DNA from: Streptacidiphilus jiangxiensis
GTDB lineage: Bacteria > Actinomycetota > Actinomycetes > Streptomycetales > Streptomycetaceae
Length of the DNA stretch: 64,000 bases
NCBI RefSeq assembly: GCF_900109465.1
Contig: NZ_FOAZ01000007.1
Coordinates: forward strand, 100,840 to 164,839
Direction: 5' to 3'
Below, piece by piece: positions 1,118-51,111 of the stretch. Every line of letters starts with the position of its first letter. The first letter of the stretch is position 1. Under the pieces are notes generated by a model that was not told where the DNA came from, ran no database searches, and saw nothing but the letters and a program-made list of their open reading frames with translations. A program made the position numbers and the translations under genes.

Positions 1118-1399
1118 GTGAATCTGGGAACCGAGGAGACGTTGCGGTTGACGGTGGCGGCGTTGTCGCATGTGCGCGGCGAGACGCAGGCCGACCTGGC
1201 GGCCGCCATCGGTTCGACGCAGACGCAGGTGAGCCGCCGTCAGGCCGGGCGAACGGCCTGGACACTGGCCGATTGCGACCGGCTTGCGAACCACTACGGG
1301 ATCCCGGTGCTGGTCCTGCTCGCGGGGCCGACCGCCGCCTGTGAGGCGGCCTTCGCCACGACCCCCGGCGTGGCGCCGCGACGCGAGGGTGGTGCCTGA
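1118..1399 (+). CDS. Small XRE-like helix-turn-helix protein
   Basis: 93 aa from the GTG at 1118. Residues about 8-55 look like a lambda-repressor-type HTH: an 'ETQADLAAAIGSTQTQVSRR' helix-turn-helix followed by a WTLADCDRLANHYGIPV segment, as in XRE proteins. GTG 1118 is favoured because AAGG lies seven bases upstream and TAAGGT six bases upstream; GTG 1112 is the other option. Its stop overlaps the next start as TGATG, so translation is probably coupled to the 726-aa protein. It is likely the regulator or DNA-binding accessory of the operon that continues to 6575. Confidence 0.75.
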   Translation: MNLGTEETLRLTVAALSHVRGETQADLAAAIGSTQTQVSRRQAGRTAWTLADCDRLANHYGIPVLVLLAGPTAACEAAFATTPGVAPRREGGA

Positions 1400-3579
1400 T
1401 GGACCGCACCGCGTTCAACGCCGGCCTTGCCGAACTGCGTCCGCTGCGCGACGAGATCGCCAAGCTGGAGAAGTCGCTTGCCAAGCTCGTGCGCGACCGC
1501 GACAACCGGGTGCGCAAGCTCGGCGCCTTCGCGGACGCGACCGCCGCTGCCGTCGCGAAGGCCGCCGGGGTGAGCATCGGCGAGGTCGTCGCCCTCGTGC
1601 CACGTCTGGACCCCACGCCCGAGCACGCCCGAGCCCGGCTCCGGACCAGCCCGGCGGCGCCCGTCCCCGCGTCGGACGCGGGTGGGCCGCCGGAGGGTGC
1701 CGTCGTGCCGACGTCGCCGGTGACCCCCGCCGCCCAGGACACCGCGGCCGCCCTGCCGACCGCCACGCCCGAGCCGGCGGAGCCGGTGGAAGAGGCGCCT
1801 GCACCGGCGAACGAGGAGCGCGAGGCCGCCGCCGTCGACGCCGGCCACGAGCCGACGCCGCCCACGGTGCGAGGTCCCGGTGAGCGGATCGAGCTGCCGT
1901 CCGTCCCGGACGGACCGGCGGGCGAGGCTTACACGGCCGTGACGGAGAACCTGTTCTCGCAGCGCCCCAACTTCACCCAGGGCTCCAGGGAGATGGTGTT
2001 CCTGGACGCCGCCACCGGCGTGATGGCCGGTCGCGGCGGCGAGGTCCGCCTGGACCTCGGCGCACGGACCGCCGAGGAGATCCTCGACGCCGTCCTGACG
2101 GTCGCGCCGGGGACCGAGCGCGTCTACATCACCGCCGGCGCGCCCTGGCACGCCGACGCCGAGCGCTACCCGACGCTCAAGCAGGCCGTCGCCGCCTGGC
2201 TCAACACCGAGTCGCAGCGCTGGACGGTCGACACCGGGCGCGGGCGGGACCGCATGGCCGGTCACTTCGTGCACGCGCGCCAGCCCGTCGGCCGCTACAC
2301 CCGCGTGGGCGCGGAGCGGAACGCCGAGCATGTGGAGATCCGCTCGGTGGGCGAGTGGTTCGACCCGGCCGGGGCCGATCCGCTGCTGGTCCGCGAGGCG
2401 TTCGTGTGCCTGTGGAAGGCGTTGAAGGTCAAGTGGCCCGACGTCGTCCTGATGGGTTCGCCGTCGCAGACCGGCAAGGACCTGTGGGCGCGGACCATCC
2501 CGCTCAAGGGGCAGTGGGCGGGCGGCTACCCGGTGCTGTCGCAGGAGCTGCGCGGGCTGTTCCACGCGACGGCGGGGCAGGGCCGCACCGAGCTGATCCT
2601 GCCGCCCGGGATCCCGGCCGAACTGCCGGGCCTGGTCGAGTACGACCGCACCTTCGCCTACGCCCGGCACACCTGGCGCAGCCCGGTCGGGGTGCCGCGG
2701 CGCGTCACCGGGGCCGCTTTCGCGAAGCTGACCGAAGCGGAGCAGAAGAAGCTGCTCATGTCCCCGGCCCACCTCCAGGTCCGGGTCACCGTGCCGGACG
2801 GGTGGGAGCACGTGGGTCTGCTGCCCGCGCCGATCAGCGGCGACCGCAACTGGGAGTACCCGTCGGCCCCGGGCGCCACCTTCACGACGTGGGCGGGCGG
2901 CGCGGAGGTCCACACGGCGCTGTCGAACCCGTTCGGGCCCTGGCGGATCGAGGTACTGGACGCGCTGGTCTTCGCCGAGGGCGACCCGATCGACAAGTGG
3001 TCCAAGTGGCTCAAGGAGGCCTGGGCCTCGCTGTCGGCGGGCGCACAGATCCACGCCGACGCCTGTCAGCGCCAGGCCCTGTACCTGGCCTCCCGCGCGG
3101 TCCGCAGCATCCTGCTGTTCGGGATCGGCGGCTTCGCGCAGCGCCCGCGTCTGGTCACCGGCACCACCTCCCTCGACGAACTGCACCTGGTCCCGGAGGG
3201 TGCGGAGATCCTCACCCACGACGAGCGCCAGGTGACCTGGCAGCGCGTCAGCGGCTTCTCGCGCGACCCGATGGCCCACCCCGAGTGGTCGGCGAGCGTG
3301 TGGTCCGGGGCGCGCGCCGCGCTGCTGTCGATGCGGATGCGCCCGGAGAACGTCCAGGTCGGTGCCCTGCACGTGCCGGCCGGGCAGGTGGTGGCGTTCC
3401 GCACCGACGCCGTCTACCTGACCGCCCGCCACGACTGGCCCTACCACGGTGAACCGGGCGACTACCTGCTCAAGGGCCACCTCGCCGGTCCCGTCCCCGC
3501 GCCCGCGAGCGAGGACGAGCTGCTGGCGCTGCGTGACAAGGGCCGCGCCGCCCTCGCCGCCGCCGGGGGTGAGCGATGA
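1399..3579 (+). CDS. Large protein with Tap-like (telomere-associated) features, unproven
   Basis: 726 aa. Residues 1-60 form a charged helical segment (LRPLRDEIAKLEKSLAKL) and an HTH-like stretch (AAAVAKAAGVSIGEVV). An Ala/Pro/Glu-rich linker follows to about 165, then a large folded domain. That domain contains VEYDRTFAYARHTW, VPDGWEHVGLLPAP, WEYPSAPGATFTTWAGGAE and AVRSILLFGIGGFAQRPR, a pattern I associate with actinomycete proteins in plasmid or telomere replication contexts. It overlaps the HTH gene (TGATG) and the next gene (ATGA). Size and order match the tap gene of the Streptomyces tap-tpg pair, which recruits the terminal protein to telomeres. The family assignment is from memory and needs a profile search; a plasmid or element replication protein is the main alternative. 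Confidence 0.45.
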   Translation: MDRTAFNAGLAELRPLRDEIAKLEKSLAKLVRDRDNRVRKLGAFADATAAAVAKAAGVSIGEVVALVPRLDPTPEHARARLRTSPAAPVPASDAGGPPEGAVVPTSPVTPAAQDTAAALPTATPEPAEPVEEAPAPANEEREAAAVDAGHEPTPPTVRGPGERIELPSVPDGPAGEAYTAVTENLFSQRPNFTQGSREMVFLDAATGVMAGRGGEVRLDLGARTAEEILDAVLTVAPGTERVYITAGAPWHADAERYPTLKQAVAAWLNTESQRWTVDTGRGRDRMAGHFVHARQPVGRYTRVGAERNAEHVEIRSVGEWFDPAGADPLLVREAFVCLWKALKVKWPDVVLMGSPSQTGKDLWARTIPLKGQWAGGYPVLSQELRGLFHATAGQGRTELILPPGIPAELPGLVEYDRTFAYARHTWRSPVGVPRRVTGAAFAKLTEAEQKKLLMSPAHLQVRVTVPDGWEHVGLLPAPISGDRNWEYPSAPGATFTTWAGGAEVHTALSNPFGPWRIEVLDALVFAEGDPIDKWSKWLKEAWASLSAGAQIHADACQRQALYLASRAVRSILLFGIGGFAQRPRLVTGTTSLDELHLVPEGAEILTHDERQVTWQRVSGFSRDPMAHPEWSASVWSGARAALLSMRMRPENVQVGALHVPAGQVVAFRTDAVYLTARHDWPYHGEPGDYLLKGHLAGPVPAPASEDELLALRDKGRAALAAAGGER

Positions 3580-4271
3580 CGACGCCGCCGCAGCCGGGCG
3601 AGGCCGCGCGCCTCGCGCAGCAGCTGGTCGACGCCGGGTTCAACCGCCGCCAGATCGCCGACATGCTCGAGCGCAACGCCTCCCTGGTCTCGCAGTTCTT
3701 CACCAAGGGCAAGGGGGCCGGGTTCGTGCCCGCGCTGCGCCAGCTCGTGCGGGCCGTCGAGGGCGGCGAGCGCGACCCGGAGGCGCTGAGGGCCATCGCC
3801 CAGCAGAACGTGACCCGCCGGTTGACCAGGGACCGGCGGGTGGCCCGCGTCCGCGGCCGCGACGTGCTGGAGACGCCGGGCGGGTCGATGGCCGGCCGCG
3901 CCGGACGGCAGGCCATCGCGCACGGCGCCGGGCACCTGGCCGCCGTCATCCACGACACCGCCCAACGCGGCGGCCGGATCGCCGTCACCGTGCGCATGCG
4001 CAAGCGCCACTTCGTGCTCTCGTCCGGGTCGAAGGACGACTCTCCGGGGCTGCGCCGCGGTGTGGTCCCGCGCGCGGACGGCACCGAGGAGCGCTCCTAC
4101 GGGTCGAAGGTGTCCGGCGGCTTCGACGCCCGCGAGTGGTCGGCGATGGTCGCGGCCGCCGGCGGCGACGTCACCGCAGCCGTCCTGACCTGGCTGATCG
4201 ACACCGGGCGCGCCACCGAGGACGCCGAGATCCTCTACATCGAGGTCCGCGGCTGGACCCCCCGTCGCTGA
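3576..4271 (+). CDS. HTH protein, candidate terminal-protein-like partner
   Basis: 231 aa, ATGA overlap with the preceding gene. The N-terminal HTH (NRRQIADMLERNASLVSQFF, residues 20-39) is followed by an Arg-rich middle (TRRLTRDRRVARVRGR). The C-terminal domain contains RIAVTVRMRKRHFVL and ends DAEILYIEVRGW. Streptomyces terminal proteins (Tpg, about 185 aa; Tpc of SCP1 is larger) share this general plan: small HTH, basic middle, beta-strand-rich C-terminus. No alignment was possible here. The coupled position directly after a Tap-sized protein is the main reason for the suggestion. Otherwise it is an unassigned DNA-binding protein of the operon. Confidence 0.5.
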   Translation: MTTPPQPGEAARLAQQLVDAGFNRRQIADMLERNASLVSQFFTKGKGAGFVPALRQLVRAVEGGERDPEALRAIAQQNVTRRLTRDRRVARVRGRDVLETPGGSMAGRAGRQAIAHGAGHLAAVIHDTAQRGGRIAVTVRMRKRHFVLSSGSKDDSPGLRRGVVPRADGTEERSYGSKVSGGFDAREWSAMVAAAGGDVTAAVLTWLIDTGRATEDAEILYIEVRGWTPRR

Positions 4272-4310
4272 GCGACCGTCACGCTCCGGAGAAACAAAGG
4301 GATCAGGCAC

Positions 4311-6575
4311 GTGGAGACCCAGGTCGTGGACACCGATGCCGCTGCCGCCCCCCGGCCCGTCGACGAGGCCGGGGACCGGGCGGCAGCGCGCCGGCGTGCC
4401 GTCGAGGCGGCCGGATCGTTCCTGATGCCGCTGCGCGAGCACCAGAAGCAGGCCGTCACCGCGGCCTGGCGGGCGGTGCGCGACGGCGGCCGCGCGATCG
4501 TCGAGTCCTGCTGCGGCTCCGGCAAGACCCTGATCGCCGCGGCCTGCGCACGCCGCGTCGCGCCGCACGGCGCCGTGCTGGCCACCATGCCCACCATCGA
4601 ACTGGTCTGGCAGACCGTCGGTGTGTGGCTGGCGCACGGAGGCCGCCGCGGACCGGTCGTCATCGTCTGCTCCTCCTCGGAGAACCGGGAACTCGAGGAG
4701 GCCGGGTTGAGAGTCGACGCGGTCATCACCACCAAGGCCCACAGGATCGCCGAGGTGGTCCGGGCGGCCGCCGGGGGCCCGGTCACGGTGTTCGCCACCT
4801 ACGCCAGCATCGACCGCGTCGTCGAGGCCCACGCACTGCACGGCATGCCGGGATTCGACCTCGCGGTCGTCGACGAGGCCCACCGCACCGCCGGATCGTC
4901 CGCGAAGCCCTGGGCCGCCGTCCACGACGACACGAGGATCCCCGCCCGGCGGCGCCTGTACTTCACCGCCACCCCGCGCATCGCCGAAGGCCTCTCCGCC
5001 GGGCCCGAGACCGGCGGAGAGAACGTCGTCTGCTCCATGGACGACCCGGAGGTGTTCGGCGAGACGGTCTTCCGCTACCCCGTCGCCCAGGGCATCGCCG
5101 ACGGCCTCATCGCCGACTACCAGGTCGTCGTCCCGGTGGTCACCGACCAGGACCTCCAGGAACTGCTGAACGAGCCCGGCATCTCCGACCTGCGTTCGCG
5201 CCGCACCAACGAGGAACTCCAGCGCCTGGCCCTGCAGATCGCGACCTGCCGCGCGATCGACACCTACGCGCTGGAGCGGGTCATCACCTACCACTCCCGC
5301 ATCCGCGGCGCGCGCGAGTTCGTCCGGACCCTCCACCACGCCGCCGCGCTCCTGCCGCGCAGTGACCGGTTGGGGCACCTCCATCTCGCCGCCGTCGCGG
5401 GCAGCGACCGGCTCAAGGACCGGCGTCACGCCTTCGACCAGTTCAGGTCCGAGAGCGCCAGGGGCGGCCACCGCTGCGCGCTGATCGCCAACAGCCGGCT
5501 CCTGGCCGAGGGCATCGACCTGCCGGCCGTCGACGCGGTGATCTTCGCCGATCCCAAGAACTCCATCGTCGACATCGTCCAGGGCGCGGGCCGGGCCTTC
5601 CGCGTCCCGCTCGGCGTCACCGGCAAGGTCGCCAGGATCATCATCCCCGTCTACCTCCCCGGCCCTGCCGACGAGAACGCGGAGCAGGACGACACCGAGA
5701 CCGAGCTCAACCGCAGCGCCTTCGCGGCCGTCTGGCAGGTCCTGCGCGCGCTGGCCGCGCACGACGAACGGGTCACCGCCCGCATCACCGAGCTGCGCAC
5801 CAACCGCTACGGCGCCGAGCAACTGCGCCCCCACACCGCCGAGCCGGGCCTGGAGCAGGACCAGGACGCCGAGGAGCAGGCGGACGGCGTCGCCGCAGGG
5901 GACGCCGACTGGCTGCGCGTGGAGACCACCGCGTACCAGGACCGGATCCTGCGCACCCTCAAGCTCCGCACGCTCAGCCCACGCACCGCCGAGTGGGAGA
6001 AGTGGTACGAGCAGGCGGAGGCGTTCCACCAGGAACACGGCCACCTCGACGTGCGCGAGGGCGACCTCGTCGACTGGCTGAACCGGCAGCGCGAGCAGCA
6101 CGCGGCCGGACGGCTGGACGCCGCCCGGATCAGCGAGCTCGACCGGATCGCCATGATCTGGAACAAGCACGCCCACGCCTGGGAACGCGGCTACGCCTAC
6201 GCCAGGGCCTGGCACCAGCTCCACGGCGACCTCGCCACCCCGGCGGGCGCGCGGATCGACGGCTACACCGTCGGCCGGTGGCTGCGCGTCCAGCGGCTCG
6301 GCGGCCATCTCGTCCCGGAGCAGCGGCAGTTGCTCGACACGCTGGACCCGCTGTGGCGGTGGGACCCGAAGTGGCAGCGCGGGCTGCGCCGCCTGACCGC
6401 GTACCTCGCGGCCGGCGGCGCCCTCACCGGCCCCCGCAACCGCCCCGGCCTCGGCGACGACCCGGGCTTCCGGCCCGGCGTGTGGCAGCACCAGCAGATC
6501 CAGCAGGCCGACGAGCTCCACCCGGACCAGATCGCCCTGCTCGATGGCTTGGGGCCGTGGCGCACGGTGCGGTGA
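4311..6575 (+). CDS. DEAH-box SF2 helicase with helicase-associated repeats
   Basis: 754 aa, GTG start with AAAGGGA upstream. Superfamily 2 motifs are complete: Walker A CCGSGKT (67-73), DEAH (188-191), FTATPR (218-223) and motif VI QGAGRAFR (424-431). After residue 560 come short Trp/Tyr-rich units (WEKWYEQAEAFHQEHGHLDV; WERGYAYARAWHQLHGDLAT) typical of helicase-associated (HA) domains. Such HA helicases are common on actinomycete linear plasmids and near chromosome ends (TtrA-like) and on integrative elements. It starts 39 bp after the 231-aa HTH protein in the same direction, so it is probably the last gene of the operon beginning at 1118. Confidence 0.9.
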   Translation: METQVVDTDAAAAPRPVDEAGDRAAARRRAVEAAGSFLMPLREHQKQAVTAAWRAVRDGGRAIVESCCGSGKTLIAAACARRVAPHGAVLATMPTIELVWQTVGVWLAHGGRRGPVVIVCSSSENRELEEAGLRVDAVITTKAHRIAEVVRAAAGGPVTVFATYASIDRVVEAHALHGMPGFDLAVVDEAHRTAGSSAKPWAAVHDDTRIPARRRLYFTATPRIAEGLSAGPETGGENVVCSMDDPEVFGETVFRYPVAQGIADGLIADYQVVVPVVTDQDLQELLNEPGISDLRSRRTNEELQRLALQIATCRAIDTYALERVITYHSRIRGAREFVRTLHHAAALLPRSDRLGHLHLAAVAGSDRLKDRRHAFDQFRSESARGGHRCALIANSRLLAEGIDLPAVDAVIFADPKNSIVDIVQGAGRAFRVPLGVTGKVARIIIPVYLPGPADENAEQDDTETELNRSAFAAVWQVLRALAAHDERVTARITELRTNRYGAEQLRPHTAEPGLEQDQDAEEQADGVAAGDADWLRVETTAYQDRILRTLKLRTLSPRTAEWEKWYEQAEAFHQEHGHLDVREGDLVDWLNRQREQHAAGRLDAARISELDRIAMIWNKHAHAWERGYAYARAWHQLHGDLATPAGARIDGYTVGRWLRVQRLGGHLVPEQRQLLDTLDPLWRWDPKWQRGLRRLTAYLAAGGALTGPRNRPGLGDDPGFRPGVWQHQQIQQADELHPDQIALLDGLGPWRTVR

Positions 6576-7632: not shown

Positions 7633-10494
7633 ATGACCACGCCGCACACGCCGGACACGGAGCCCGCGCAGCAACCCCGGCCGGGCGGGCTGACCGGGCG
7701 GGCGGCCGATCTGCGGCGCGTCGACGCGTTCCTGGCGGGCCTCGCCACCGTGGGGAGCGCGCTGGTGGTCTGCGGCGAGGTGGGGGTGGGCAAGACCGCG
7801 CTGCTCACGGCCGCCACCGACCGGGCCGAGCGCGCCGGGGTGCGGACGCTCAGCGCCACCGGCACCCAGTTCCAGGCGCAGACGGGCTTCGGCGCGCTGC
7901 AGCAGTTGCTCCTCCCCGTGCACGCGGAGCTCGCGGCGCTCGCCCCTGACCACCGCGACGTCCTCACGGTCGTGCTCGGCGCGGGCAGTGGCCCGGTCCC
8001 TGAGGCGGGCGGCGGGCCCGCCCCCGACGCGGAGGCGGTGGCCCGGGCAGCCGTCGCGTTGCTGGGCCGACTCACGCGGGAGCGGCCTGTGCTGCTGGTA
8101 CTGGACGACCTGCCGTGGATCGACCCCAGCAGCGCGATGGTCCTCGGGCAGGTCGCGCGCCGCCTGCTCGGGACCAGGGCGGGGCTGCTCGCCGCCGAAC
8201 GCACCGACGCGGAGAGCTACTTCGACCGCACCGGCTGCGCCGTCCACGTGCTGGAGCCGCTCGACGACGCGGCCGCCGACCACCTGCTGGCCGAGCGCTT
8301 CCCGGCGCTCGCGCAGCGCGTCCGTCGCCGACTGCGCGCCGCGGCCCAGGGCAACCCGCTCGCGCTGCTCGAACTCCCCGTCGCGCTCGCCGGCACACCC
8401 GGCGCGGCGGCCGGGCGGGCGACACCCGTGTCCCTCCCACTGACCAGGCGGCTGCAGGACGCCTTCGCGGCGCGCGTCACCGCCCTTCCCGCGCCCACCC
8501 GCTACCTGCTGCTGCTCGCCGCCCTCGAAGGCACCGGCGACCTGCGCGTGCTCGCAGCCGCGGTGGCGGGCCGGTGCAGCGTCAAACATCTCGGGCCGGC
8601 CGAGCGCGCCCAGTTGATCCGGGTCGACGACCACGCCGGACGCCTGCACTTCCGGCATCCGCTGACCCGACTCGCCGTCGTCGAGCTGTCCACCAGCGAC
8701 CAGCGCCGCAGCGCCCACCGCGCCCTCGCCCGGCCGCTCGCCGACCGGCCCGATCAGTGCGCCTGGCACCTCGGGCAGGCCACGGTCGCCCCGGACGAGC
8801 AGGTCGCCGGGAAGTTGGAGCATGCCGCGGACAGCATGAGCCGCCGAGGGGACGGCGCCGGCGCCATCGCCGCGCTGTTGCGGGCCGCCGACCTCAGCCC
8901 CCAACCCGCCCACCGCGCCCGCCGCCTCGCGCGGGCGGCCTACCTGGGCGTCCACCTCACCGGAGACCTGCAGGAGGTGCCGCGACTACTGGACGACGCC
9001 CGACGCTCCGAGGGCCCGGACGGCCCGGACGGCCCGGACGGCCCGGACGCGCCCGGCGACGGGCCCCTTCTCGCGGCGGTCGCGGGCTCCGCCTACCTGC
9101 TCAACGGCTCCGGTGACATCGACACCGCGCACCGCCTGCTCGGCGAAGCCGTCGCCGCCCGCCCGCGCCCCTACGACCCGCAGGACCGGACGCTCGCGGA
9201 GGCCCTGCACACGCTGATGCTGGTCTGCTTCTTCGGCGGCCGCCCGCAGCTGTGGCAGCCGGTCGACGCCGCTCTCGAAGGCTTCGCCGGCGACGCGGGG
9301 ATGCTCACCGTCACCCGGGGCACCCTCGCCGACCCGGTCCGCTGCACACCTGGCCAACTCGACGCGCTGGACCGGGCCGTGGCGCAACTCGCGCACGAGT
9401 CCGACCCGGCCCGCATCGTCCGGACCGGCACCGCCGCCGCCTACGTCGACCGACTCGACCACTGCCGCGACGCGCTGCTCCGCGTCGCCGAGGCCCGGCA
9501 CAAGGGCGAGTCCGCGGCAGCCATCAACGCCCTCTTCCTGCTGGGCAACCGGGCCCTGCACACCGGCGACTGGGAGGAACTGGGCCAGGTGGCCCGGGAC
9601 GGGCTGACGCTCTGCGAGGACCACGGCTACCCCATGCTGGCCTGGGTCGGACGCTTCCTGCTGGCCGTCCGCGCCGCCAACCAGGGCGAACTCACCTCGG
9701 TGCGGGCGTTGACCGACGAGATGGAGCGCTGGGCCGGGCCGAGACGGGCATGGACGGTGCGGCGCTACGCCGCCCACGCCCGCACCCTGGCCGCGCTCGG
9801 GCAGGGCGACTTCGACGAGGCCTACCGTCAGGGCTGCCTGATCGCCCCGGCGGGAACGCTGCCACCGTTCGAGCCGCACGCGCTGTGGGTGGCGCTGGAC
9901 CTGGTCGAGTCCGCGGTCCGCAGCGGACGCGGGACGCAGGCCCGCGCCCACGTCCGGGTCCTGCGGCAGGCGGGCGTCGCGGCCGTCTCGCCCGCCCTGC
10001 GGATGCGGGTCCTGGCCGCCGAGGCGCTCACCGGCGAAGGGGAGACGGCCGAACGCCGGTACGAGCAGGCCCTGGCCGTGCCCGAGGCCGAGGGTCGGCC
10101 CTTCGAGCTCGCCCGGATCCACCTCTGCTACGGCGAACACCTGCGCCGCACCAAGGCCGCCGTCCGCGCCCGGCACCACCTGGCCACCGCCGCCGACGGG
10201 TTCCGCCGCCTCGGCGCGCACCCCTGGGTGGCCCGCGCCGAACAGGAGCTGCGCGCCACCGGCGCCCACCGCTCCGACCCGGCGTCCGTGCCGACGACAG
10301 CGCTGACCCCGCAGCAACGGGAGATCGCGCACCTCGCGGCGGCCGGGCTGACCAACAAGGAGATCGGCGAGCGGCTCTTCCTCTCCCCGCGCACCGTCTC
10401 CACCCACCTGTACCAGCTCTTTCCCAAGCTGGGCATCTCCTCCAGGGCCGCCCTGCGCGACGCCCTGGACCGGATTCCCGGACCGAAGACCTGA
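7633..10494 (+). CDS. LAL (large LuxR-type ATPase) regulator A
   Basis: 953 aa, the usual length for the LAL family. An N-terminal AAA-type ATPase has Walker A GEVGVGKT (48-55) and Walker [13 protein letters not shown] (153-164). A long TPR-like helical middle follows, and the C-terminus is a LuxR HTH ([20 protein letters not shown]... to the end). LAL proteins are ATP- and ligand-responsive activators. Its HTH is nearly identical to that of regulator B ([11 protein letters not shown] in both), which suggests overlapping operator specificity and fits the shared palindromes. A 9-bp DNA repeat around 9013-9048 encodes four GPD units in the middle region. Confidence 0.92.
9013..9048. repeat. Tandem 9-bp repeat (GGCCCGGAC x4)
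   Basis: Four exact copies of GGCCCGGAC inside LAL regulator A encode Gly-Pro-Asp repeats. The unit is a multiple of three, so slippage would change linker length without shifting the frame. Confidence 0.85.
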
Positions 10495-10557
10495 TCAACC
10501 ACGCCACCGGCGTTCTATCGTGGCCTGCGGGCCCAGCGATCGGACGCGGGAGGGGTA

Positions 10558-13491
10558 GTGACGTCAGCGCGACCGGGACTGATCGCCAGGGACGGCATGC
10601 TGGATGCCGTCGGCGCTCTCCTCGACCGGCTGCGCGCCGAGCCGACCGGGGCCGCGACCGGCCCGGAGACCGGCGCGGTGGAGCGCACGCTGCTGGTGCT
10701 CGGAGAGCCCGGCCTCGGCAAGACCTCCGTGCTGGAGGCGGCCGCCACCCTCGCCACGGAGCAGGGCGGACAGGTGCGTTGGGTCGTCGGTCGGCAGGCG
10801 GAGGCGGGCCTGGCCTACAGCGGCCTGCACGCGCTGCTGGACCCCTGGCAGCCCGGCCCGGCCGGCGCCGACGAGGACGACGCGTCCCTGCTGCACGCGG
10901 CGCTGCGCGGCGGAGCGGGGGAGGGTGCAGGCCAGGCGACGGGTGGCGGTGTGCCGGCGCCGGCGGGCGCGCTGGTCCGGCTGCTGTCCCGGTGGGCCCA
11001 GGAGGGGCCGCTGCTCGTGGTCGTGGACGACCTCCAGTGGCTGGACCGCTCCACGCAGGACCTGCTGACCCTGTGCGCGCGGCGGCTGGCGGGCGAGCCG
11101 ATCGGCTTCGTGGTCGCCTCGCGCCCGGCAGGCCTTGCCGACGCCTGGGTGAGGCAGAGCACCGTGCACCGGCTGGACCCCTTGGACGAGATCCACTCCG
11201 CCCGGCTGCTGGACTCGCTGCCGCGCGCGCCGGAGGGACGGGTCCGACGACAGGTGCTGCGGCTGGCGGGCGGCAACCCCCTGGCCCTGATCGAGCTCGC
11301 CCGCACCAGCACCGGGAAGTCCTTCGCCCAGGACCCGGCCGGGTCCGACCTCCCGCTCGGTGCACGGCTGGAACGCCTCTACGCGGCGGACCTGGACGCC
11401 TTGCCGGGCCACGTCCGGGCGCCGCTGCTGCTCGCCGCGGTCGCGGACCCGCCGGACCTGGCCGCGCTCGGCGAGCTGTTCGACAAGGCGGTCCTGGAAT
11501 GCGGCCAGGACGCGCCGACACTGCACCCGGCACGAACCCACGACGCGGCAAGAACCAGGGGCGAGGAAACCCCGGCCGCGGCAGACCCCCGGGACGTCGT
11601 CGGTCCGCGGGCCGAGACGGTCCGGCCCGCCGACGCCGTGTGGTCCGTCGCCGAGCGCGCGGGCCTGCTGGTGCTGCGCGCGGGGCAGCTCCGATTCCGG
11701 CACCCCCTGATCCGCTCCGCCGTACTGTCCGCGGCGACCTTCGAGCAACGGGCACGGGCCCACCTGCTCCTGGCCGCCAACCCCGACCTGGACGAGGACC
11801 GCCGTGCCTGGCATCGCGCCGCCGCCACGGTCACCGCCGACGAGTCGGTCGCCGCGGCGCTGGAGGCGACGGCCGACCGTGCCCGCCGCCGCGGCGGCCA
11901 CCCGGCCGCCGCCACCACCATGGAGCGCGCCGCCCAACTCAGCCCGCGCACCGAGGACCGGGTGCGCCGACTCGGCGCGGCAGCGGAGTTCGCCATGCTC
12001 GCCGGGCAACCGCTCTGGGTCGCCGAGCTGACCGCCGAGGTGGCCGCGCTCGCCGACACCCCCGAGGCACGCGCCCACGCCGACCTGCACGCCGGCTGGG
12101 CCCTGGCCCTGACCAGCCGTCACGCCGAGGCGATGGACCACCTGCTGGCCGCCTCCGACGCCTATGCCCGAACGCGTCCCGCACTGGCCGTGCCGCCGCT
12201 CGGCACCGCCACGATGGTGGCGTTCATCAGCGGGGAGCCGCGCTTCCGTGCCGCCGTCCTGGACCGCTACCGGGCGCTGCCCCCGCAGGAACCCGACTAC
12301 GCCTCCACCTGGATCCTGGCGGGTTGCGACCCCTTCGGCGCCCGCCGCGAAGCGCTGCGCCACCTGCGCGAGGCCGCCGCCCGTTCCGAACTGCCGCTGG
12401 GTGCCTGGTCGATGCTGGGTGCCGCGGCCTGGGCGCTGGACGAGACCGACCTGGCCGTCCAGTACTACGGCAGCCTGCTGGAGCGGTACCGGCAGTCGGC
12501 CACCTCCGGCGCCAACGCCACCGTCTCCTCCGCCCACGCCCTGGCCCTGTTCGAGTCGGGCCGCTGGGCCGCCGCGCTGGCGGGCGTCAGCGAGGCGGAG
12601 CAGGCGGCGGCCGCCGGGGGACTGGAGATCGCGACCCTCAGCACCCAGATACTGGCCGCCGTCCTGGCCGCCGTCCGCGGCGACGCCGACCGCGCCCGGC
12701 GGGTCCTCGCCGAGGCCACCCGCGACGTCGACCTGCGCGGCACCCGCAACCTGGACGCCCGGGTCCGCCAGGCCCACGCGCTGGCCGCGCTCGCCGGCGG
12801 CGACCACCAGGCAGCCTGGTTCCACCTCAGCCGGCTCTTCCACCCCGACAGCAGCCCGGTGCACTTCCACACCTCGCTGCTCGGCCTCGGTGATCTCGCC
12901 GCCGCCGCCGTTCGTGTCGACGGCACGGCGCGGGCACGCGAGATCCTGCACGCCGTGCACGCCGTGCACGCCGAGCTGCCGAGCGAGGTCTCGCCGCGGC
13001 TGCGGCTGATCCTGTGCCGGGCCCGGGGGCTGCTGGCGGCGGACGAGGCCACGGCGGAGGAGCAACTGCGCGAGGCCGCGTTCACTCCCGCAGGGGACCA
13101 GTGGCCCTTCGAGCGGGCGCGGGCGCTGGCCGACCTGGGGGAGTGGTTGCGGCGCCGCCAGCGGCCGGCCGACGCGCGGCTGCCGCTGGGCGAGGCGCGC
13201 GAGCTCTTCCAGGGTCTGGGCGCCATCCCGTGGGCCGCCCGCACCGCAGCCGAGCTGCGGGCGGCAGGGGTCGACACGGCCCCGGCGCGCAGCACCGACC
13301 TCACCATGGAACTGACACCGCAGCAGCTCGCCATCGTGCGGTTGGCGGCGCAGGGACTGTCCAACAAGGAGATCGGCGAGCGGCTCTTCCTCTCCTCCCG
13401 CACCGTCGGCTTCCACCTGAGCCGGGCCTTCCCCAAGCTCGGTGTCACCTCACGTTTCCAGCTGCGGGACGTCGTCGCGCAGGTCGGCTGA
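10558..13491 (+). CDS. LAL (large LuxR-type ATPase) regulator B
   Basis: 977 aa, GTG start with GGGAGGGG just upstream. Same architecture as regulator A: Walker A GEPGLGKT (49-56), Walker [13 protein letters not shown] (152-163), helical repeat middle and LuxR HTH at the end ([20 protein letters not shown]). It begins 63 bp after regulator A in the same direction. No copy of the CGTCA-N2-TGACG palindrome was seen in that gap, so it may be read from the regulator A promoter. The alpha/beta hydrolase 100 bp downstream is preceded by the palindrome and is a probable target. Confidence 0.92.
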
Positions 13492-31245: not shown

Positions 31246-31683
31246 ATGCTGGCGGAGGCGTTGACAGCGTTGGCGGCCGCAGGTGGAACCGCGGTCGCGA
31301 AAGCGGCAGGGACCGACCTGTGGAAGGGACTGCGCGACCAGGTCGCACGCTGGTTCGGCCGAGGCGACGCGCAACGGGAACAACGTGAGCTCGAGCGCCT
31401 GGACCGCAGCGCGGCAGAGCTCGAGGCAGCCGCCCCCATCGAGCTGGAGCGGGTCAGGGCCCGGCAGGAGATCGCCTGGCAGACCCGCATCGAGACCCTG
31501 CTCGAGGAGCTCGACGACGAGCAGCGGGAGCAGGCCGCTGCCGAACTGCGAGCCCTGCTCGAGCAGGCCGCGCCGCAGCCCGGCGGCACCAACGTGCTCT
31601 CCGGCAACACCTTCCACGGCCAAACCGCCGTCCAGATCGGAGACCACAACCGCCAGGACGTCCGCTTCGGCCCACAGCCATGA
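31246..31683 (+). CDS. Bell-like helical effector with C-terminal amyloid-type motif
   Basis: 145 aa from ATG 31246 (AGGGGG upstream; GTG 31180 would add 22 residues). Residues 1-22 are a hydrophobic Ala/Gly-rich helix (MLAEALTALAAAGGTAVAKA). They are followed by LWKGLRDQVARWFGRG and a long charged coiled-coil (about 41-108). The C-terminus after a PQPGG linker is TNVLSGNTFHGQTAVQIG (115-132). The same motif stands at the N-terminus of the overlapping STAND protein (ATGA overlap). Small all-helical 'Bell' domains with a C-terminal BASS motif are known partners of bacterial NLRs; by analogy with fungal HeLo proteins they would perforate membranes when the motif polymerises. Function is inferred from architecture. 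Confidence 0.75.
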   Translation: MLAEALTALAAAGGTAVAKAAGTDLWKGLRDQVARWFGRGDAQREQRELERLDRSAAELEAAAPIELERVRARQEIAWQTRIETLLEELDDEQREQAAAELRALLEQAAPQPGGTNVLSGNTFHGQTAVQIGDHNRQDVRFGPQP

Positions 31684-34600
31684 CCCGCCCCCACCCCGGT
31701 GCCGAAACCGACCAGGGTGGCGTGAACGGCAGCACCTTCCACGGTCCCACCGCGATCCAGACCGGCCCGGGCGGCGTGCAGAACGTCCAGTTCGTCTACC
31801 GGTGGAAGCCCGCGTACCGGATCGAGGACTTCCCGGCCGTGTCCGCGCCAGTACCTGCCCGGGCGCTGGAGCGGCAACCTTCGCGGCTGCTGCGGGCCGG
31901 GCATCGGGTGGTGCCGTTCACCGGCCGCGCCCACGATCTCGACAACCTGGCGCGCTGGCGTGACGACCCGACAGAGAGACTTGCGGTCCGACTGATCCAC
32001 GGCCCTGGCGGCCAGGGCAAGACCCGTCTGGCTGCGCGCTTCGCCGAACTGAGTCGTCAGGCTGGGTGGACGGTGTGGCAGGCGGTTGTGAACGAGGCGG
32101 ACACTGACCGAGTGGCGACCGGTGAAGCCCCCGAGGCCGCGGCCGGCGTCGTGCTCGTGGTCGACTACGCAGAACGCTGGCCAACTGCTGAGCTGCGCCA
32201 GCTGCTGCGCGAGCCCCTGCTGCACCACGGCCAGGTTCCGGTACGGGTCCTGCTCCTGGCCCGCCCGGCCGGACTCTGGTGGGACAGCCTGAACACCTGG
32301 ATCGGCGACCACCTCGACGCCGCATCTGAAGCCCACCCGCTCCTATCGCTGGCCACCCACGCCGCGGCCCGGGCCGAGCTGTACGAGCAGGCCCGCAACA
32401 GCTTCGCGGACCAACTCGGCCTGCCCGACGAGCAACACAGCCGCATCGGACCGCCAGCGGACCTGGACCACGACGAGGATTACGCGCAGATCCTGACCAT
32501 CCACATCGCTGCCCTGGCCGCCGTCGACGCCGCCCTGCACAACGATCCCGCTCCGAGCGATCCGGCTCGCGCCAGCGCCTACCTCCTCAAGCGCGAACGC
32601 GCCCACTGGAGCCAATTGCACCGTCGCGCGCATGAGCCGTTGGCCACCACCCCGCAGGCCATGGGGCGGGCAGTGCTGATCGCGACCTTCACCCGCGCAT
32701 TGGCTCGCGACCCGCACGGCTGGAGTGTGCTGCAGCGCACAGGGCTTGCCGACACCAAAGCCGCCGCCAACACCGTCCTGGACGACCACCTGTACTGCTA
32801 TCCCGCCATCCGGCCCGACACGGTTCTCGAGCCGCTCTACCCCGACCGCCTCGGCGAGGACTTCATCGGCCTGACCACCCCACCGGACCACAGCACAGCC
32901 CATCCGGTTTCGGGGGCAGTAACCGACGACTGGGCCGGCAAAGTGGTCTCACGCCTCCTCCTCAGCGGCCGCACTTCTGCCGGCCCTTCTGCGCCTTGGA
33001 CCCGGGACGCGCTGACAGTCCTGATCGAAACCGCCCGCCGCTGGCCCCATGTCGCCACCGGCCAGCTCTATCCCCTCCTCAAGGAGCATCCCGAACTCGC
33101 ACTGCAGGCAGGCGGCGCCGCCCTCGCTGCCCTAGCCAGCCTCGACCACATCGACATCACCGTTCTGGAAGCCATCGAACCTCTGCTACCCGAAGGCCGG
33201 CACACCGACCTCGACCTCGGTATCGCCGCCATCGCCAGCACCCTGGCCGGCCACCGCCTGGCCGCCACCCAAGACCTGCTTACCCGGGCCCGCATCAACG
33301 ACCACCTTGCGGTGCGAGCGCACTACGCTGGCCTGCGCGACGCCGCCCTCACCGCCGCGCAAGACGCCCTGAACACCTGGCGACACCTTGCCCGCACCAA
33401 TCCTGCCGTCTACGAGCCCGACCTCGCCGCCGCACTGAACAACCTCGGGGTGTGGCTGTCGGAGATGGGTCGGCGGGGGGAGGCGTTGGAAGTGGCCGCT
33501 GAGGCGGTGGCGATTCGCCGCCGGTTGGCGGACCCGGTCACGGGCGACCCTGAGGTCTTTGAGCCTGATCTCGCCAGCTCGCTTAACAACCTCGGTGTCC
33601 GGCTGTCGGGGGTGGGTCGGCGGGGGGAGGCGTTGGAGGTCACGACGGAGGCGGTGGCGGTCTACCGGCGGTTGGCCGACCCGGTTACGGGCAACCCCGC
33701 CGCCCACGAGCCCGACCTCGCGGGGGCCCTGAACAACCTCGGTGCCGATCTATCGGAGGCGGGTCGGCGGGGGGAGGCGTTGGAGGTCACGACGGAGGCG
33801 GTGGCGGTCTACCGGCGGTTGGCCGACCCGGCCACTGGCAACCCCGCCGCCCACGAGCCCAACCTCGCCGCCGCACTGAACAACTTCGGCGCTCGGTTGT
33901 CGGGGGTGGGTCGGTGGGCGGAGGCGTTGGAGGTCACCGCTGAGGCGGTGGCGGTCTATCGGCGGTTGGCGGACCCGTTCACGGGCAACCCCGCTGCCCA
34001 TGAGCCCGACCTCGCCGGGTCACTCTCCAACCTTGGAATCTGGTTGTCGGAGGTGGGTCGCCAGGCGGAGGCGTTGGAGGTCACGACGGAGGCGGTGGCG
34101 GTCTATCGGCGGTTGGCGGACCCGGCCACTGGCAACCCCGCCGCATACGAGTGGCATCTCGCCGCAGCGCTGAACAACCTCGGTGCCGGGCTGTCGGGGA
34201 TGGGTCGGCGGGGGAAGGCGTTGAAGGCCACGACTGAGGCGGTGGCGATTCGGCGCCGGTTGGCGGACCCGGTCACGGGCGACCCTGCCACCTACGAGCC
34301 TGACCTCGCCGCTTCGCTGTCTAATCTCGGCAGTCGGTTGTCGGGGGTGGGGCGGTGGGGGGAGGCGTTGGAGGCGTCCGCTGAGGCGGTGGCGGTCTAT
34401 CGGCGGTTGGCGGACCCGGTTACGGGCAACCCTGCTGCCCATGAGCCTGATCTCGCCCGCTCGCTGAACAACCTCGGCACTCGGCTGTCGGGGGTGGGGC
34501 GGTCGGCGGAGGCGCTGGAGGCTACGACTGAGGCGGTGGCGATTCGGCGTCGGTTGGCGGACCCGGTTACGGGCAGCCCCGCCGCCCATGAGCCCGACCT

Positions 34601-35450
34601 GGCCAGCTCGCTGAACAACCTCGGTATCTGGCTGTCGGAGCTCGGTCGGCGGGCGGAGGCGTTGGAGGCCACGACAGCGGCGGTGGCGCTCTACCGGCGG
34701 TTGGCGGACCCGGTTACGGGCAACCCCGCCGCCCACGAGCCCGACCTCGCGGGGGCCCTGAACAACCTCGGTGCCGATCTGTCGGGGGTGGGTCGCCAGG
34801 CGGAGGCGTTGGAGGCCACGACAGCGGCGGTGGCGGTCTACCGGCGGTTGGCGGACCCGGTTACGGGCAACCCCGCCGCCCACGAGCCGGACCTCGCCGC
34901 GGCGCTGAGCAACCTCGGCGCCCGGCTAGCGCAGGTGGGTCGGCGGGCGGAGGCGTTGGAGGCCACGACTGCGGCGGTGGCGGTCTATCGGCGGTTGGCG
35001 GACCCGGTTACGGGCAACCCCGCCGCCCACGAGCCGGACCTCGCCGCGGCGCTGAGCAACCTCGGCGCCCGGCTAGCGCAGGTGGGTCGGCGGGCGGAGG
35101 CGTTGGAGGCCACGACTGCGGCGGTGGCGGTCTATCGGCGGTTGGCGGACCCGGTTACGGGCAACCCTGCCGCCCATGAGCCCGACCTCGCCACCTCGCT
35201 AACTTTCATGGGCATGCTCAGCAGGGCAGCAGGAGGCGATCTTGCCGGAGTGCTTCATTCGACGGGGGAAGCGATCGAGATCTACCGGCGGCACATTGCC
35301 GCAGCACCCGTGCTGCATCCCCCACTCCACGTCGCGCTGAATCTGCAGGCAATGGTGCTTGTAGATCTCGGGCGGGTGGACGACGCGGCAGCGGTCCAGA
35401 GCTGGCTGGACGAGAACCCGCTACCGCCAAGCCTCGGACCTCAGGTATGA
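31680..35450 (+). CDS. STAND (NLR-like) NTPase with N-terminal amyloid-type motif and TPR repeats
   Basis: 1256 aa. Residues 13-29 carry GGVNGSTFHGPTAIQTG, matching the partner's C-terminus. Next comes a short linker with YRIEDFP, then a P-loop domain with Walker A GPGGQGKT (108-115) and Walker B VVLVVDYAERW (157-167). A helical region of about 370 residues follows. The C-terminal half has twelve near-identical 49-residue TPR-like units (NNLG.RLS..GR.EALE, then AVAVYRRLADPVTGNPAAHE) plus a degenerate thirteenth. This is motif, switch and sensor in the order of an NLR immune receptor. Ligand binding by the repeats would trigger oligomerisation and seed the effector's motif. It is cytoplasmic. 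The gene overlaps the effector gene. Confidence 0.85.
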   Translation: MTRPHPGAETDQGGVNGSTFHGPTAIQTGPGGVQNVQFVYRWKPAYRIEDFPAVSAPVPARALERQPSRLLRAGHRVVPFTGRAHDLDNLARWRDDPTERLAVRLIHGPGGQGKTRLAARFAELSRQAGWTVWQAVVNEADTDRVATGEAPEAAAGVVLVVDYAERWPTAELRQLLREPLLHHGQVPVRVLLLARPAGLWWDSLNTWIGDHLDAASEAHPLLSLATHAAARAELYEQARNSFADQLGLPDEQHSRIGPPADLDHDEDYAQILTIHIAALAAVDAALHNDPAPSDPARASAYLLKRERAHWSQLHRRAHEPLATTPQAMGRAVLIATFTRALARDPHGWSVLQRTGLADTKAAANTVLDDHLYCYPAIRPDTVLEPLYPDRLGEDFIGLTTPPDHSTAHPVSGAVTDDWAGKVVSRLLLSGRTSAGPSAPWTRDALTVLIETARRWPHVATGQLYPLLKEHPELALQAGGAALAALASLDHIDITVLEAIEPLLPEGRHTDLDLGIAAIASTLAGHRLAATQDLLTRARINDHLAVRAHYAGLRDAALTAAQDALNTWRHLARTNPAVYEPDLAAALNNLGVWLSEMGRRGEALEVAAEAVAIRRRLADPVTGDPEVFEPDLASSLNNLGVRLSGVGRRGEALEVTTEAVAVYRRLADPVTGNPAAHEPDLAGALNNLGADLSEAGRRGEALEVTTEAVAVYRRLADPATGNPAAHEPNLAAALNNFGARLSGVGRWAEALEVTAEAVAVYRRLADPFTGNPAAHEPDLAGSLSNLGIWLSEVGRQAEALEVTTEAVAVYRRLADPATGNPAAYEWHLAAALNNLGAGLSGMGRRGKALKATTEAVAIRRRLADPVTGDPATYEPDLAASLSNLGSRLSGVGRWGEALEASAEAVAVYRRLADPVTGNPAAHEPDLARSLNNLGTRLSGVGRSAEALEATTEAVAIRRRLADPVTGSPAAHEPDLASSLNNLGIWLSELGRRAEALEATTAAVALYRRLADPVTGNPAAHEPDLAGALNNLGADLSGVGRQAEALEATTAAVAVYRRLADPVTGNPAAHEPDLAAALSNLGARLAQVGRRAEALEATTAAVAVYRRLADPVTGNPAAHEPDLAAALSNLGARLAQVGRRAEALEATTAAVAVYRRLADPVTGNPAAHEPDLATSLTFMGMLSRAAGGDLAGVLHSTGEAIEIYRRHIAAAPVLHPPLHVALNLQAMVLVDLGRVDDAAAVQSWLDENPLPPSLGPQV
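33430..35240 (+). repeat. Tandem 147-bp coding repeats (TPR array)
   Basis: About twelve 147-bp units inside the STAND gene. By eye, 34841-35020 is identical to 34988-35167 (180 bp at an offset of 147), so the last full units duplicated recently. Unit length is a multiple of three, so gain or loss keeps the frame. Confidence 0.9.
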
Positions 35451-48759: not shown

Positions 48760-51111
48760 TCAGTGCGTGCGCGAGTCTGCCGGATGGTCCTCGTCCGCGG
48801 CGCGGATCAGTTCCCGCACCTGGCCGGCCCGCGGGCTGCCGATCTCGGCGAGCACGGCGTAGGCCGCCTCCCAGGACGAGCGGGCCTCGTCGAGGCGGCC
48901 CATGGCCCGCAGCGCGGTGCCGAGGCCGGCGAGGCCGCGTCCGTACTGGTCGCGGTCGCCGACCTGCTGGGCGACCTGCTGCTGCTCGGCGTAGAGGGCG
49001 TGTGCGCGATCCGCCCGGTCGAGTTCCAGGTTCAGGTCGCCCAGATTGCTCAGCAGGATGCACTCCGCGCGCTGGTCGCCGCACTCCCGCGCAGCGTCCA
49101 ACGCCCGCTCGGTGTGGTCGTAGGCCGCCTTGACGTCGCCGAGCTCGTAGTAGGTCACGCCGATGTTGACCTGGCAGGCCATCACGTGCCGACGGTCGTC
49201 GGCGTTGAGCGTGATGCTGCGTTCGAGGGGTTCGATCGCGTCCGCGGCCCGCTGACGGGTGTTGTTGAGCCGACCGAGCTCCAGCAGGGCCCAACTCTGG
49301 CCGCGTGGGTCATCGGCCTCCTGGTAGAGCTGCAGCGACTCGGTGATCAGCGCGTCCTGCTCCTCGTAGCGGCCCATGGCCGTCATCGCGGTGGCGGCCC
49401 CGAGCAGGTTCCATGCGGCCACGGTCTTGTCGTCGCGCGCTCGGGCGGCTTCCGCCCCGAGGAGGTGTGCCTCGATGCTGTCGACCCGGTGGAACCGCAG
49501 ATTCCGGTAGTGGGCGAGGACGACCGGAAGCTGCCAGGTCGGTTCGTAGAGCTTCGCGTCCGCTGCCGCGCGGTGCACGGCGTCGAGGTTCTCGTGCTCC
49601 GCGTCGAGCCAGCTCAGCGCCGCCGCGTGGGAGTCGAAGGCCAGCGGTGCGACGTCGCCCGCGTCCGCGCGCTCGGGCAGGACCTTGGCCTTCATGGCCC
49701 TGGCCGCGTTGGACGCGGAGCAGAGGAACCATCGCGCCAGCCGCTCCAGCGCGGCCGGGCCCTCAGCGTCCGAATCCTCCGCCGCCGTCTCCAGGGCGTA
49801 GGCGCGCAGCAGGTCGTGGAGTTCGAAGCGGCCGGGCTTGCTCTGGCGGACCAGGTTCTCGTCCAGCAGCTGTTCGAGGGCGTCCTCGGCGGCGGTGACG
49901 GGGATGTTCGCGAGGGCGGCCACCACCTCCGGGGTGAAGTCGGGGCCGGGGTGCCGGCCGAGGAGCCGGAAGACGCGCTGCAGCGGTTCGGTGAGGTCCC
50001 GGTAGGAGAGGTCGAAGACCGGCCGGATCGCGCGCCCGCCGGCGCGGAGCGTCTCCAGGCGGCTGGTCTGCAGCCGGTCGGCCAGCTGGGCCAGGGTCCA
50101 GGCGGGGCGGGAGCGCAGCCGCGCCGCGGTCAGCGCCACGGCGAGCGGGAGGCGGTCGCAGTAGTCGACGATGCGTGCGGCGGCCTCGGGTTCGGCGGCG
50201 ACGCGGTCGGGCCCGGTGATCCGGGCGAGCAGCTCGAGTGCCTCGGCGTCGGAGAAGGTGTCCAGCAGGTGCGGGGTGACGCCGTCCAGCCCGGCGAGAC
50301 TGCGGCGGCTGGTGATCAGCACCAGGCAGGTGGGACCGGCAGGGATGAGATCGCGGACCTGGTCCTCGTCGGCGGCGTTGTCCAGCAGGACCAGCGCCTG
50401 ACGGTTCCGCATCCGGTCCCGGTACATCACCGCCCGCTCGTCCATGCCGGCCGGGATCTGCTGGGCGGGCACGGCGAGTTGGCGCAGGAACGCCTCCAGG
50501 ACCGCGGAGGGGTCCGCGGGCGGCAGGTCGGGGTCGAATCCGCGCAGGTTCACGTGCAGTTGGACGTCGGCGAAGTGCCCGGCGCGGACCAGCTCGTGGG
50601 CCGCGTGCACGGCGAGTTGGGTCTTGCCGACCCCGGCCATGCCCTCGATCGCCGAGATCACCACCGTCCTGGCCGCGTCGCCGTCACCCGGGTCCGTCGC
50701 GGCGGACACCAGACGGGCCAGCTCCTCGTGCCGTCCGGTGAAGGTCGCCAGATCCGTCGGCAGTTGGCCGAAGACGCCGACCGCGCCCGAGCCGCCGGTC
50801 TTGGCCTGGGCGTGAACGCGCACGCATGCGGTGTGCCACTGGCCGACCGTCGCCTCGTCCAGGCCGAGTGCGCGCACCACACCGACGACGAGATCCAGGT
50901 TCAGGCGGCGCCGGCCGGGCTGGAACATGTCGGCGATCGTGGACTTCGAGACCTGCTGCGCCGGTCGCAGCAGCGGCCCGACCCGCTTGGCCAGGTCCCG
51001 GAAGGACGGATCGCCGCCCCACACCCGCAGCCGGTCCAGCAGCCCGATGTAGTCCGCGAGGTCCGCGGCCCCCTGCGGGTCCGGCAGGCCGTCGGGCAGT
51101 CCCGCAGCCAT
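48760..51111 (-). CDS. HTH / NB-ARC / TPR regulator
   Basis: 783 aa, GGGGAGG before the ATG. An N-terminal HTH (about 35-85: FRDLAKRVGPLLRPAQQVSK, STIADMFQPGRRRLNLDLV) leads to an NB-ARC NTPase with FTGRHEEL, Walker A GMAGVGKT (157-164), ALVLLDNAADEDQV (Walker B), LVLITSRRSL and YCDRLPLAVAL. The last 250 residues are TPR repeats (ALLELGRLNNTRQRAADAIE; NIGVTYYELGDVKAAYDHTE). This AfsR-relative without a BTAD domain is frequent in streptomycetes as a signal-responsive regulator. Tandem GTCCGGAC elements lie about 55-75 bp upstream. The next genes are unrelated. Confidence 0.9.
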   Translation of the reverse strand: MAAGLPDGLPDPQGAADLADYIGLLDRLRVWGGDPSFRDLAKRVGPLLRPAQQVSKSTIADMFQPGRRRLNLDLVVGVVRALGLDEATVGQWHTACVRVHAQAKTGGSGAVGVFGQLPTDLATFTGRHEELARLVSAATDPGDGDAARTVVISAIEGMAGVGKTQLAVHAAHELVRAGHFADVQLHVNLRGFDPDLPPADPSAVLEAFLRQLAVPAQQIPAGMDERAVMYRDRMRNRQALVLLDNAADEDQVRDLIPAGPTCLVLITSRRSLAGLDGVTPHLLDTFSDAEALELLARITGPDRVAAEPEAAARIVDYCDRLPLAVALTAARLRSRPAWTLAQLADRLQTSRLETLRAGGRAIRPVFDLSYRDLTEPLQRVFRLLGRHPGPDFTPEVVAALANIPVTAAEDALEQLLDENLVRQSKPGRFELHDLLRAYALETAAEDSDAEGPAALERLARWFLCSASNAARAMKAKVLPERADAGDVAPLAFDSHAAALSWLDAEHENLDAVHRAAADAKLYEPTWQLPVVLAHYRNLRFHRVDSIEAHLLGAEAARARDDKTVAAWNLLGAATAMTAMGRYEEQDALITESLQLYQEADDPRGQSWALLELGRLNNTRQRAADAIEPLERSITLNADDRRHVMACQVNIGVTYYELGDVKAAYDHTERALDAARECGDQRAECILLSNLGDLNLELDRADRAHALYAEQQQVAQQVGDRDQYGRGLAGLGTALRAMGRLDEARSSWEAAYAVLAEIGSPRAGQVRELIRAADEDHPADSRTH

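Follow-up and report, generated by a model that had tools for sequence, protein, structure and literature searches.

Gene organization of the locus

Within the 64,000-nt stretch of DNA analyzed here (the window; positions 100840 to 164839 of a 360,714-bp draft contig), four genes follow one another on the forward strand, all with open reading frames. The first (positions 1112 to 1399 of the window, GTG start) encodes a small XRE-type helix-turn-helix (HTH) protein of 95 amino acids (HTH_3; E = 4e-5). The second (1399 to 3579, ATG start) encodes P0002, a 726-amino-acid protein predicted to be a Tac-like telomere-associated protein (TAP) with a phi29-fold family B polymerase and a degenerate exonuclease. 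The third (3576 to 4271, ATG start) encodes P0003, a Tpc-like candidate terminal protein (TP) of 231 amino acids. The last (4311 to 6575, GTG start) encodes a DEAH-type superfamily 2 helicase of 754 amino acids, in which Pfam searches identified ResIII, DEAD, and Helicase_C domains and three HA repeats (HA; E = 5e-30). By sequence, the putative TAP gene lies directly 5' of the putative TP gene in an operon arrangement.

An earlier note on this DNA had described a four-gene operon at this place, packed with TGATG and ATGA overlaps. The operon is there, with every frame open and its central pair conserved wherever we found it (see below). The overlaps hold for the first three genes: the HTH/P0002 junction is TGATG, with a 1-base overlap, and the P0002/P0003 junction is ATGA, with a 4-base overlap at positions 3576 to 3579. 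They do not extend to the helicase, which starts nearby, 39 nt past the end of P0003. Elsewhere in the window are two large LuxR-type regulators in tandem (953 and 977 amino acids; positions 7633 to 13491), which have AAA_16 domains, a 1,256-amino-acid TPR protein (31680 to 35447), and an NB-ARC/TPR protein (48760 to 51108).

Conservation and mobility of the P0002-P0003 pair

When one genome of each species was scanned for relatives of P0002, 80 loci emerged, all of them in Streptomycetaceae, and the closest relatives (70 to 84%) were from Streptacidiphilus. Because a P0003 homologue was found directly downstream of P0002 in all 80 loci, we regard the pair as a genuine unit. The neighboring genes were much less constant. 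Helicase homologues were located 3' of the pair in only ∼35 of the 80 loci, and the helicase appears from its distribution to be an accessory gene of the Streptacidiphilus/Kitasatospora branch. Homologues of the XRE-type HTH gene were present in few loci, with other loci carrying a different, HTH_17-type gene upstream. The proposal that the four genes form one module is therefore sound for the P0002-P0003 pair and fails for its two neighbors, the HTH gene upstream and the helicase, which fall outside the conserved core.

DNA similarity to three Streptacidiphilus relatives was restricted to window positions ∼1396 to 6550, with unrelated flanks, and similarity to a fourth relative had the same borders. 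P0002 was present in 5 of 14 Streptacidiphilus genomes; the locus is thus patchy within the genus and not the conserved central locus that the earlier note had listed as evidence against its reading. Since the pair is constant, the helicase and HTH genes vary, and DNA similarity ends at the module borders, the functional core is most simply P0002-P0003, moving between contexts. The 64-kb window contained no tRNA gene that would suggest tRNA-associated integration. We found no relatives in viral contigs and phage records, and a phage origin is therefore without direct support.

Predicted fold and polymerase motifs of P0002

Searches of P0002 against Pfam, NCBIfam, and PHROGs returned nothing useful, and P0002 itself had no match to the Pfam family DNA_pol_B_2. 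Two plasmid homologues did match this family (pSCO2, 4e-4; pKRAD01, 1.5e-3), both under the gathering score, and the aligned N terminus of the pSCO2 homologue matched phrog_686, an HTH DNA-binding protein (E = 1.2e-5). In the alignment, residues 1 to 160 of P0002 (positions 1399 to 1878) comprise an N-terminal coiled-coil/HTH-like region and an Ala/Pro-rich linker.

We built an AF2 model of residues 161 to 726 on a 66-sequence alignment (pLDDT, 86; pTM, 0.86). The best model stood clearly above the other four (mean pLDDT, 86 versus 72 to 81). It matched five entries of phi29 DNA polymerase, including the complex with the terminal protein, with VIA Z scores of 17.5 to 19.3 over 419 to 431 residues; the top match was 2pyj_A (Z, 19.3; 430 residues aligned; 5.5 Å). 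The remaining top structural matches were all family B polymerases (Z up to 12.3), and Foldseek gave an E value of 2e-8 to phi29 polymerase and nothing else below 1e-3. The model thus predicts a phi29-type polymerase fold for P0002, and the match is to a protein-primed polymerase, not to the unrelated families that the earlier note had set against its own reading.

Independently of the model, a mixed profile of 80 sequences has just two aspartates that never vary, D416 and D670. Motif A (D416RTFAY421; positions 2644 to 2661) aligned with phi29 DVNSLYP (D249..Y254), and its D416 and Y421 were invariant (80/80). Motif B (R569SILLFGIGGFAQRP583; positions 3103 to 3147) corresponds to phi29 KLMLNSLYGKFASNP; position 569 was R or K and position 577 was G in all 80 sequences, and A580 was kept in 79. 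Motif C (T669D670AVYLT675; positions 3403 to 3423), the counterpart of phi29 TD458SIHLT, lies on a beta-hairpin in the model and retained D670 in 80 of 80 sequences. A weak profile alignment to phi29-like polymerases (E = 0.095) likewise placed D416 on D249, GxFAxxP on YGKFASNP, and D670 on D458 (phi29 numbering). By profile alone, the comparison of P0002 with phi29 polymerase was marginal (score, 23.3); because this does not exceed the highest score of 60 shuffles (23.6), the phi29-polymerase claim rests on the fold. The Asp position of ExoI is D203, kept in 78 of 79 sequences, and the Glu position, 205, is mostly nonacidic, with the register set only by the first residues of the alignment. 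Since the Glu two residues after D203 is mostly absent, proofreading by P0002 has probably been lost.

Relationship of P0002 to canonical Tap

Pairwise BLAST of P0002 and P0003 against Tap and Tpg found nothing convincing. We constructed a Tap profile from the C-terminal halves of 14 canonical Tap proteins, taken from genes adjoining tpg, and the P0002 family aligned with it over 242 columns (hhalign; E = 1.5e-6). The E value was 4e-8 with the more diverse profile and 4e-5 when only the Micrococcus/Kineococcus/Clavibacter/Cutibacterium forms were used. P0002-Tap scores ranged from 58 to 69, whereas 60 column shuffles averaged 18 and reached at most 27.9. The Tap segments LDVNMAFA, KATVKGGIGKLRERP, and LSDCAVYLS were in register with motifs A, B, and C, and the two motif aspartates of Tap (motifs A and C) were invariant in the 14-sequence set. 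On this profile evidence, P0002 is a remote homologue of canonical Tap.

Both Tap with Tpg and Tac with Tpc carry out protein-primed synthesis in vitro without another polymerase (PMC4513846). In that study, Yang et al. (2015) described two TAP classes without homology to each other or to any protein, and considered TAPs a new polymerase class that lacks a polymerase motif, in systems that had arisen convergently (PMC4513846). The P0002-Tap homology and motifs A to C contradict that report on shared homology and on the polymerase motif; the putative motifs of Tap and P0002 do fit its finding of polymerization on the terminal protein. We consider it fairly probable that the actinobacterial TAPs (Tap, the Tac-like proteins, and the forms on Micrococcus, Kineococcus, Clavibacter, Curtobacterium, and Cutibacterium plasmids) constitute one diverged lineage of phi29-like, protein-primed family B DNA polymerases. 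If this is true, protein-primed telomere synthesis in Streptomyces shares its ancestry with phi29-type replication and is not convergent. A phi29-type fold in P0002 would explain how TAPs synthesize DNA despite their reported lack of resemblance to polymerases. In the open-access literature that our search covered, we found no statement that TAPs are family B polymerases.

P0003 as a candidate terminal protein

P0003 (pI 11.2) has an HTH at its N terminus, a basic stretch (TRRLTRDRRVARVRGRD) in the middle, and an alpha/beta domain at its C terminus. It had no informative match in Pfam or NCBIfam. In the AF2 model (pLDDT, 85), the HTH gave structural matches with Z scores of 5 to 7. The Tpc of SCP1, encoded downstream of tac, is a protein of 259 amino acids that has an HTH at its N terminus and a nuclear-localization signal in its center (PMC3572947).

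We rejected P0003 as a homologue of Tpg (∼185 amino acids): BLASTP gave an E value of 8.6, and profile likeness was confined to the HTH, with an E value of 0.33 for the C-terminal part. The earlier note had already remarked that the 231-amino-acid protein is no obvious Tpg. Residues 100 to 231 (positions 3873 to 4268) weakly matched the little-finger domains of Y-family polymerases (Dbh, DinB/Pol IV, and eta; Z, 4.2 to 4.8; 89 to 92 residues), below the level that excludes chance; the two may possibly have a DNA-binding fold in common. Candidates for the priming residue are S156, T170, and Y175. S156 follows an invariant Asp, as in the phi29 TP, and T170 precedes two Glu residues, similar to T114-D115 of Tpg.

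Carrier plasmids and their ends

In a plasmid collection, 58 records matched P0002 and 27 matched P0003. P0002 homologues with an adjoining P0003-type gene were found on pSCO2 (E = 1e-51; ∼32% identity) and pFRL3 (51% identity). On pSCO2, the two relatives are proteins of 645 and 199 amino acids encoded at 1.3 to 3.8 kb, and the 645-amino-acid P0002 relative is the sole protein of more than 400 amino acids on the plasmid. SCP1-type telomeres have been reported for both plasmids, and pSCO2 has been reported to carry tac and tpc and to lack tap, tpg, and ttrA (PMC8743542). By sequence similarity, the present pair is thus homologous to a pair carried by replicons with SCP1-type telomeres. More distant P0002 relatives, followed by an HTH protein of 250 to 290 amino acids, were found on pLMV7, pKRAD01, pCSL1, and Cutibacterium plasmids. 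Both pLMV7 and pKRAD01 are annotated as linear, and the ends of pLMV7 are identical G-runs. A P0002 relative is also present on pLMA7, for which terminal proteins at the ends have been reported (PMC5823993).

Most carrier-plasmid ends that could be reached are packed with hairpins; some records stop before the end and show nothing. Short-loop hairpins numbered 4 to 8 per 300 nt at the ends of eight Streptomycetaceae carrier plasmids (pSCO2 and pFRL3, at one end each, and the plasmids of S. anulatus, S. goshikiensis, S. canus, NBC_00513, NBC_00374, and NBC_01300), compared with mostly about 0 to 0.6 in shuffles. One pSCO2 end and the incomplete left end of pFRL3 had 1 hairpin per 300 nt each. 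The G-rich end of pLMV7 had 5 per 300 nt versus 1.7 to 2.3 in shuffles. A G-run (GGGGGG) begins the sequence of pSCO2, of pFRL3 (at one end), and, after CTA, of pLMV7. The motif GTGG[CT]TTATGTC, a candidate marker of the telomere class, is common to the plasmid ends of pFRL3, S. anulatus, and S. goshikiensis, where it is telomere proximal and lies between hairpins, and the variant GTGGTTTGCGTC is found at the NBC_00513 plasmid end. On the S. canus plasmid (NZ_CP108710.1, end read over positions 1 to 600), an HA-domain helicase gene starts 557 bp from the hairpin-rich end, a placement similar to that reported for ttrA.

Public records label pSCO2, pCSL1, and one Cutibacterium acnes plasmid as circular. 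The ends of pSCO2 are matching GGGGGGCAGAGG, G-run inverted repeats. Because a plasmid labeled circular has such ends, the topology given in the records of these carriers is unreliable.

Chromosomal copies and the source genome

In all four chromosome assemblies larger than 8 Mb that have a copy (GQFP, CB01881, S. stelliscabiei, and K. cheerisanensis), the module is situated 1.6 to 12.5 kb from the nearest contig end. No true telomere was recognizable in the chromosome assembly ends that we read. The 11.3-Mb chromosome of Streptomyces sp. CB01881 has two further copies of the pair, 150 and 254 kb from the end, so that three copies in all lie in the terminal 254 kb at one end.

The source genome (9.54 Mb in 93 contigs; 99.99% complete) has a single P0002. 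The earlier note had named a separate canonical tap-tpg elsewhere as evidence against its reading; neither gene was detectable in this assembly, with SLP2 Tpg (sequence from the database record) and the C-terminal half of Tap as queries. As a positive control, the SLP2 Tpg query finds Tpg at 5e-40 in a plasmid of Streptomyces sp. BB1-1-1. Among 50 other carrier genomes, 35 had at least one Tpg-like match and 15 had none, and because of those 35, the pair may in such carriers act for a plasmid alone. Among 102 sampled contig ends of the source genome, none was hairpin rich in a telomeric manner, and both the archetypal CCCGCGGAGCGGG end and GTGG[CT]TTATGTC were absent.

Proposed role of the operon and alternative explanations

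Our preferred reading, to which we assign a probability of roughly 85%, is that the operon patches telomere ends as a module of the Tac-Tpc class, with P0003 as the terminal protein and P0002 as its phi29-like polymerase. The earlier note had offered tac-tpc as an alternative to tap-tpg, and this suggestion is supported by homologues of the pair on linear plasmids with reported SCP1-type telomeres and near chromosome ends, and by P0002 as a remote homologue of Tap. The putative class assignment runs via the pairs on pSCO2 and pFRL3.

The steps of the mechanism are drawn from Tap/Tac biochemistry and phi29, and for this operon we infer them; what the sequences themselves show is the set of parts, how they are linked and distributed, and the fold predicted for P0002. 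Replication from an internal origin would leave 3' overhangs, which would fold into hairpins. P0002 and P0003 would bind the folded overhang, with P0002 recognizing it, and P0002 would attach the initial nucleotides to a side chain of P0003 whose hydroxyl serves as the primer. A host polymerase would then fill the remaining gap, and P0003 would stay on the 5' end as a cap. The predicted parts of P0002 are a degenerate exonuclease domain, a palm with D416 and D670, and an extra N-terminal DNA-binding region. The small XRE-type HTH protein is a probable regulator of these genes, and a likely role of the HA helicase is to help unfold telomeric DNA or to assist transfer.

Three other explanations were weighed. 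A plasmid Rep or origin module, in which P0002 is an initiator or primase-polymerase at an internal origin, P0003 is its DNA-binding partner, and the linearity of the carriers is coincidental, would suit the interior position of the pair in many plasmids (for instance, at 98 kb in 122 kb), the few other replication-gene candidates on the small pSCO2, and the circular labels on some carrier records. We nevertheless consider it improbable. The pair is also found near chromosome ends, far from oriC; P0002 is homologous to Tap, which acts at telomeres; and tac and tpc have been assigned to pSCO2 in the literature (PMC8743542). Moreover, the carrier ends are rich in hairpins, and the circular labels are unreliable. 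Slightly less credible still is an inactive remnant or a defense or transfer element, whose genes would persist in a mobile island without maintaining ends in the source strain. The intact reading frames, the retained catalytic residues, and the failure to find an alternative Tap or Tpg in the genome all speak against it, even though the conserved DNA does not extend beyond the module and only some genomes of the genus have the locus.

The alternative that deserves more weight than these, while still unlikely, concerns the name of the system: the pair could be GtpB-GtpA of Streptomyces griseus rather than Tac-Tpc, or one family could go under both names, and the mechanism would be the same. 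GtpB-GtpA is the third reported TAP/TP pair, chromosomal and found in strains without tpg (PMC7205883). The present pair is chromosomal too, and a Tpg match is missing from 15 of 50 carrier genomes, but the link to pSCO2 and pFRL3 favors Tac-Tpc.

Under the Tac-Tpc reading, the pair is a candidate end-patching system for Streptacidiphilus, a genus with no characterized telomere (PMC8743542). It also provides a handle with which to search for telomere systems in strains without Tap or Tpg, and D416 and D670 can be named as residues for mutation.

Comparison with known systems

A close counterpart is Tac-Tpc, the pair of SCP1 and pSCO2, in which the TAP and TP genes have the same order in one operon (PMC8743542, PMC3572947) and the TP, as in P0003, is larger than Tpg, with an N-terminal HTH and a basic middle. 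The present operon differs in the ∼32% identity of P0002 to the pSCO2 TAP, in the longer N-terminal extension of P0002, and in the attached helicase. Compared with Tap-Tpg, P0002 is remotely homologous to Tap across motifs A to C and both TPs begin with an HTH, whereas the C-terminal domain of P0003 has no detectable similarity to Tpg and pairwise BLAST is unconvincing. GtpB-GtpA of S. griseus, compared by description only, is like the present pair a TAP and TP on the chromosome, reported from strains that lack Tap-Tpg. With phi29 polymerase and its TP, the operon shares a predicted fold over 430 residues, the positions of motifs A, B, and C, and an adjoining gene for the primer protein. In contrast to phi29 polymerase, P0002 (12% identical) lacks the first Asp of the DTD motif and appears to have lost the ExoI Glu, and the activity expected here is the filling of the ends of a replicated linear molecule, not replication of a whole genome from its end.
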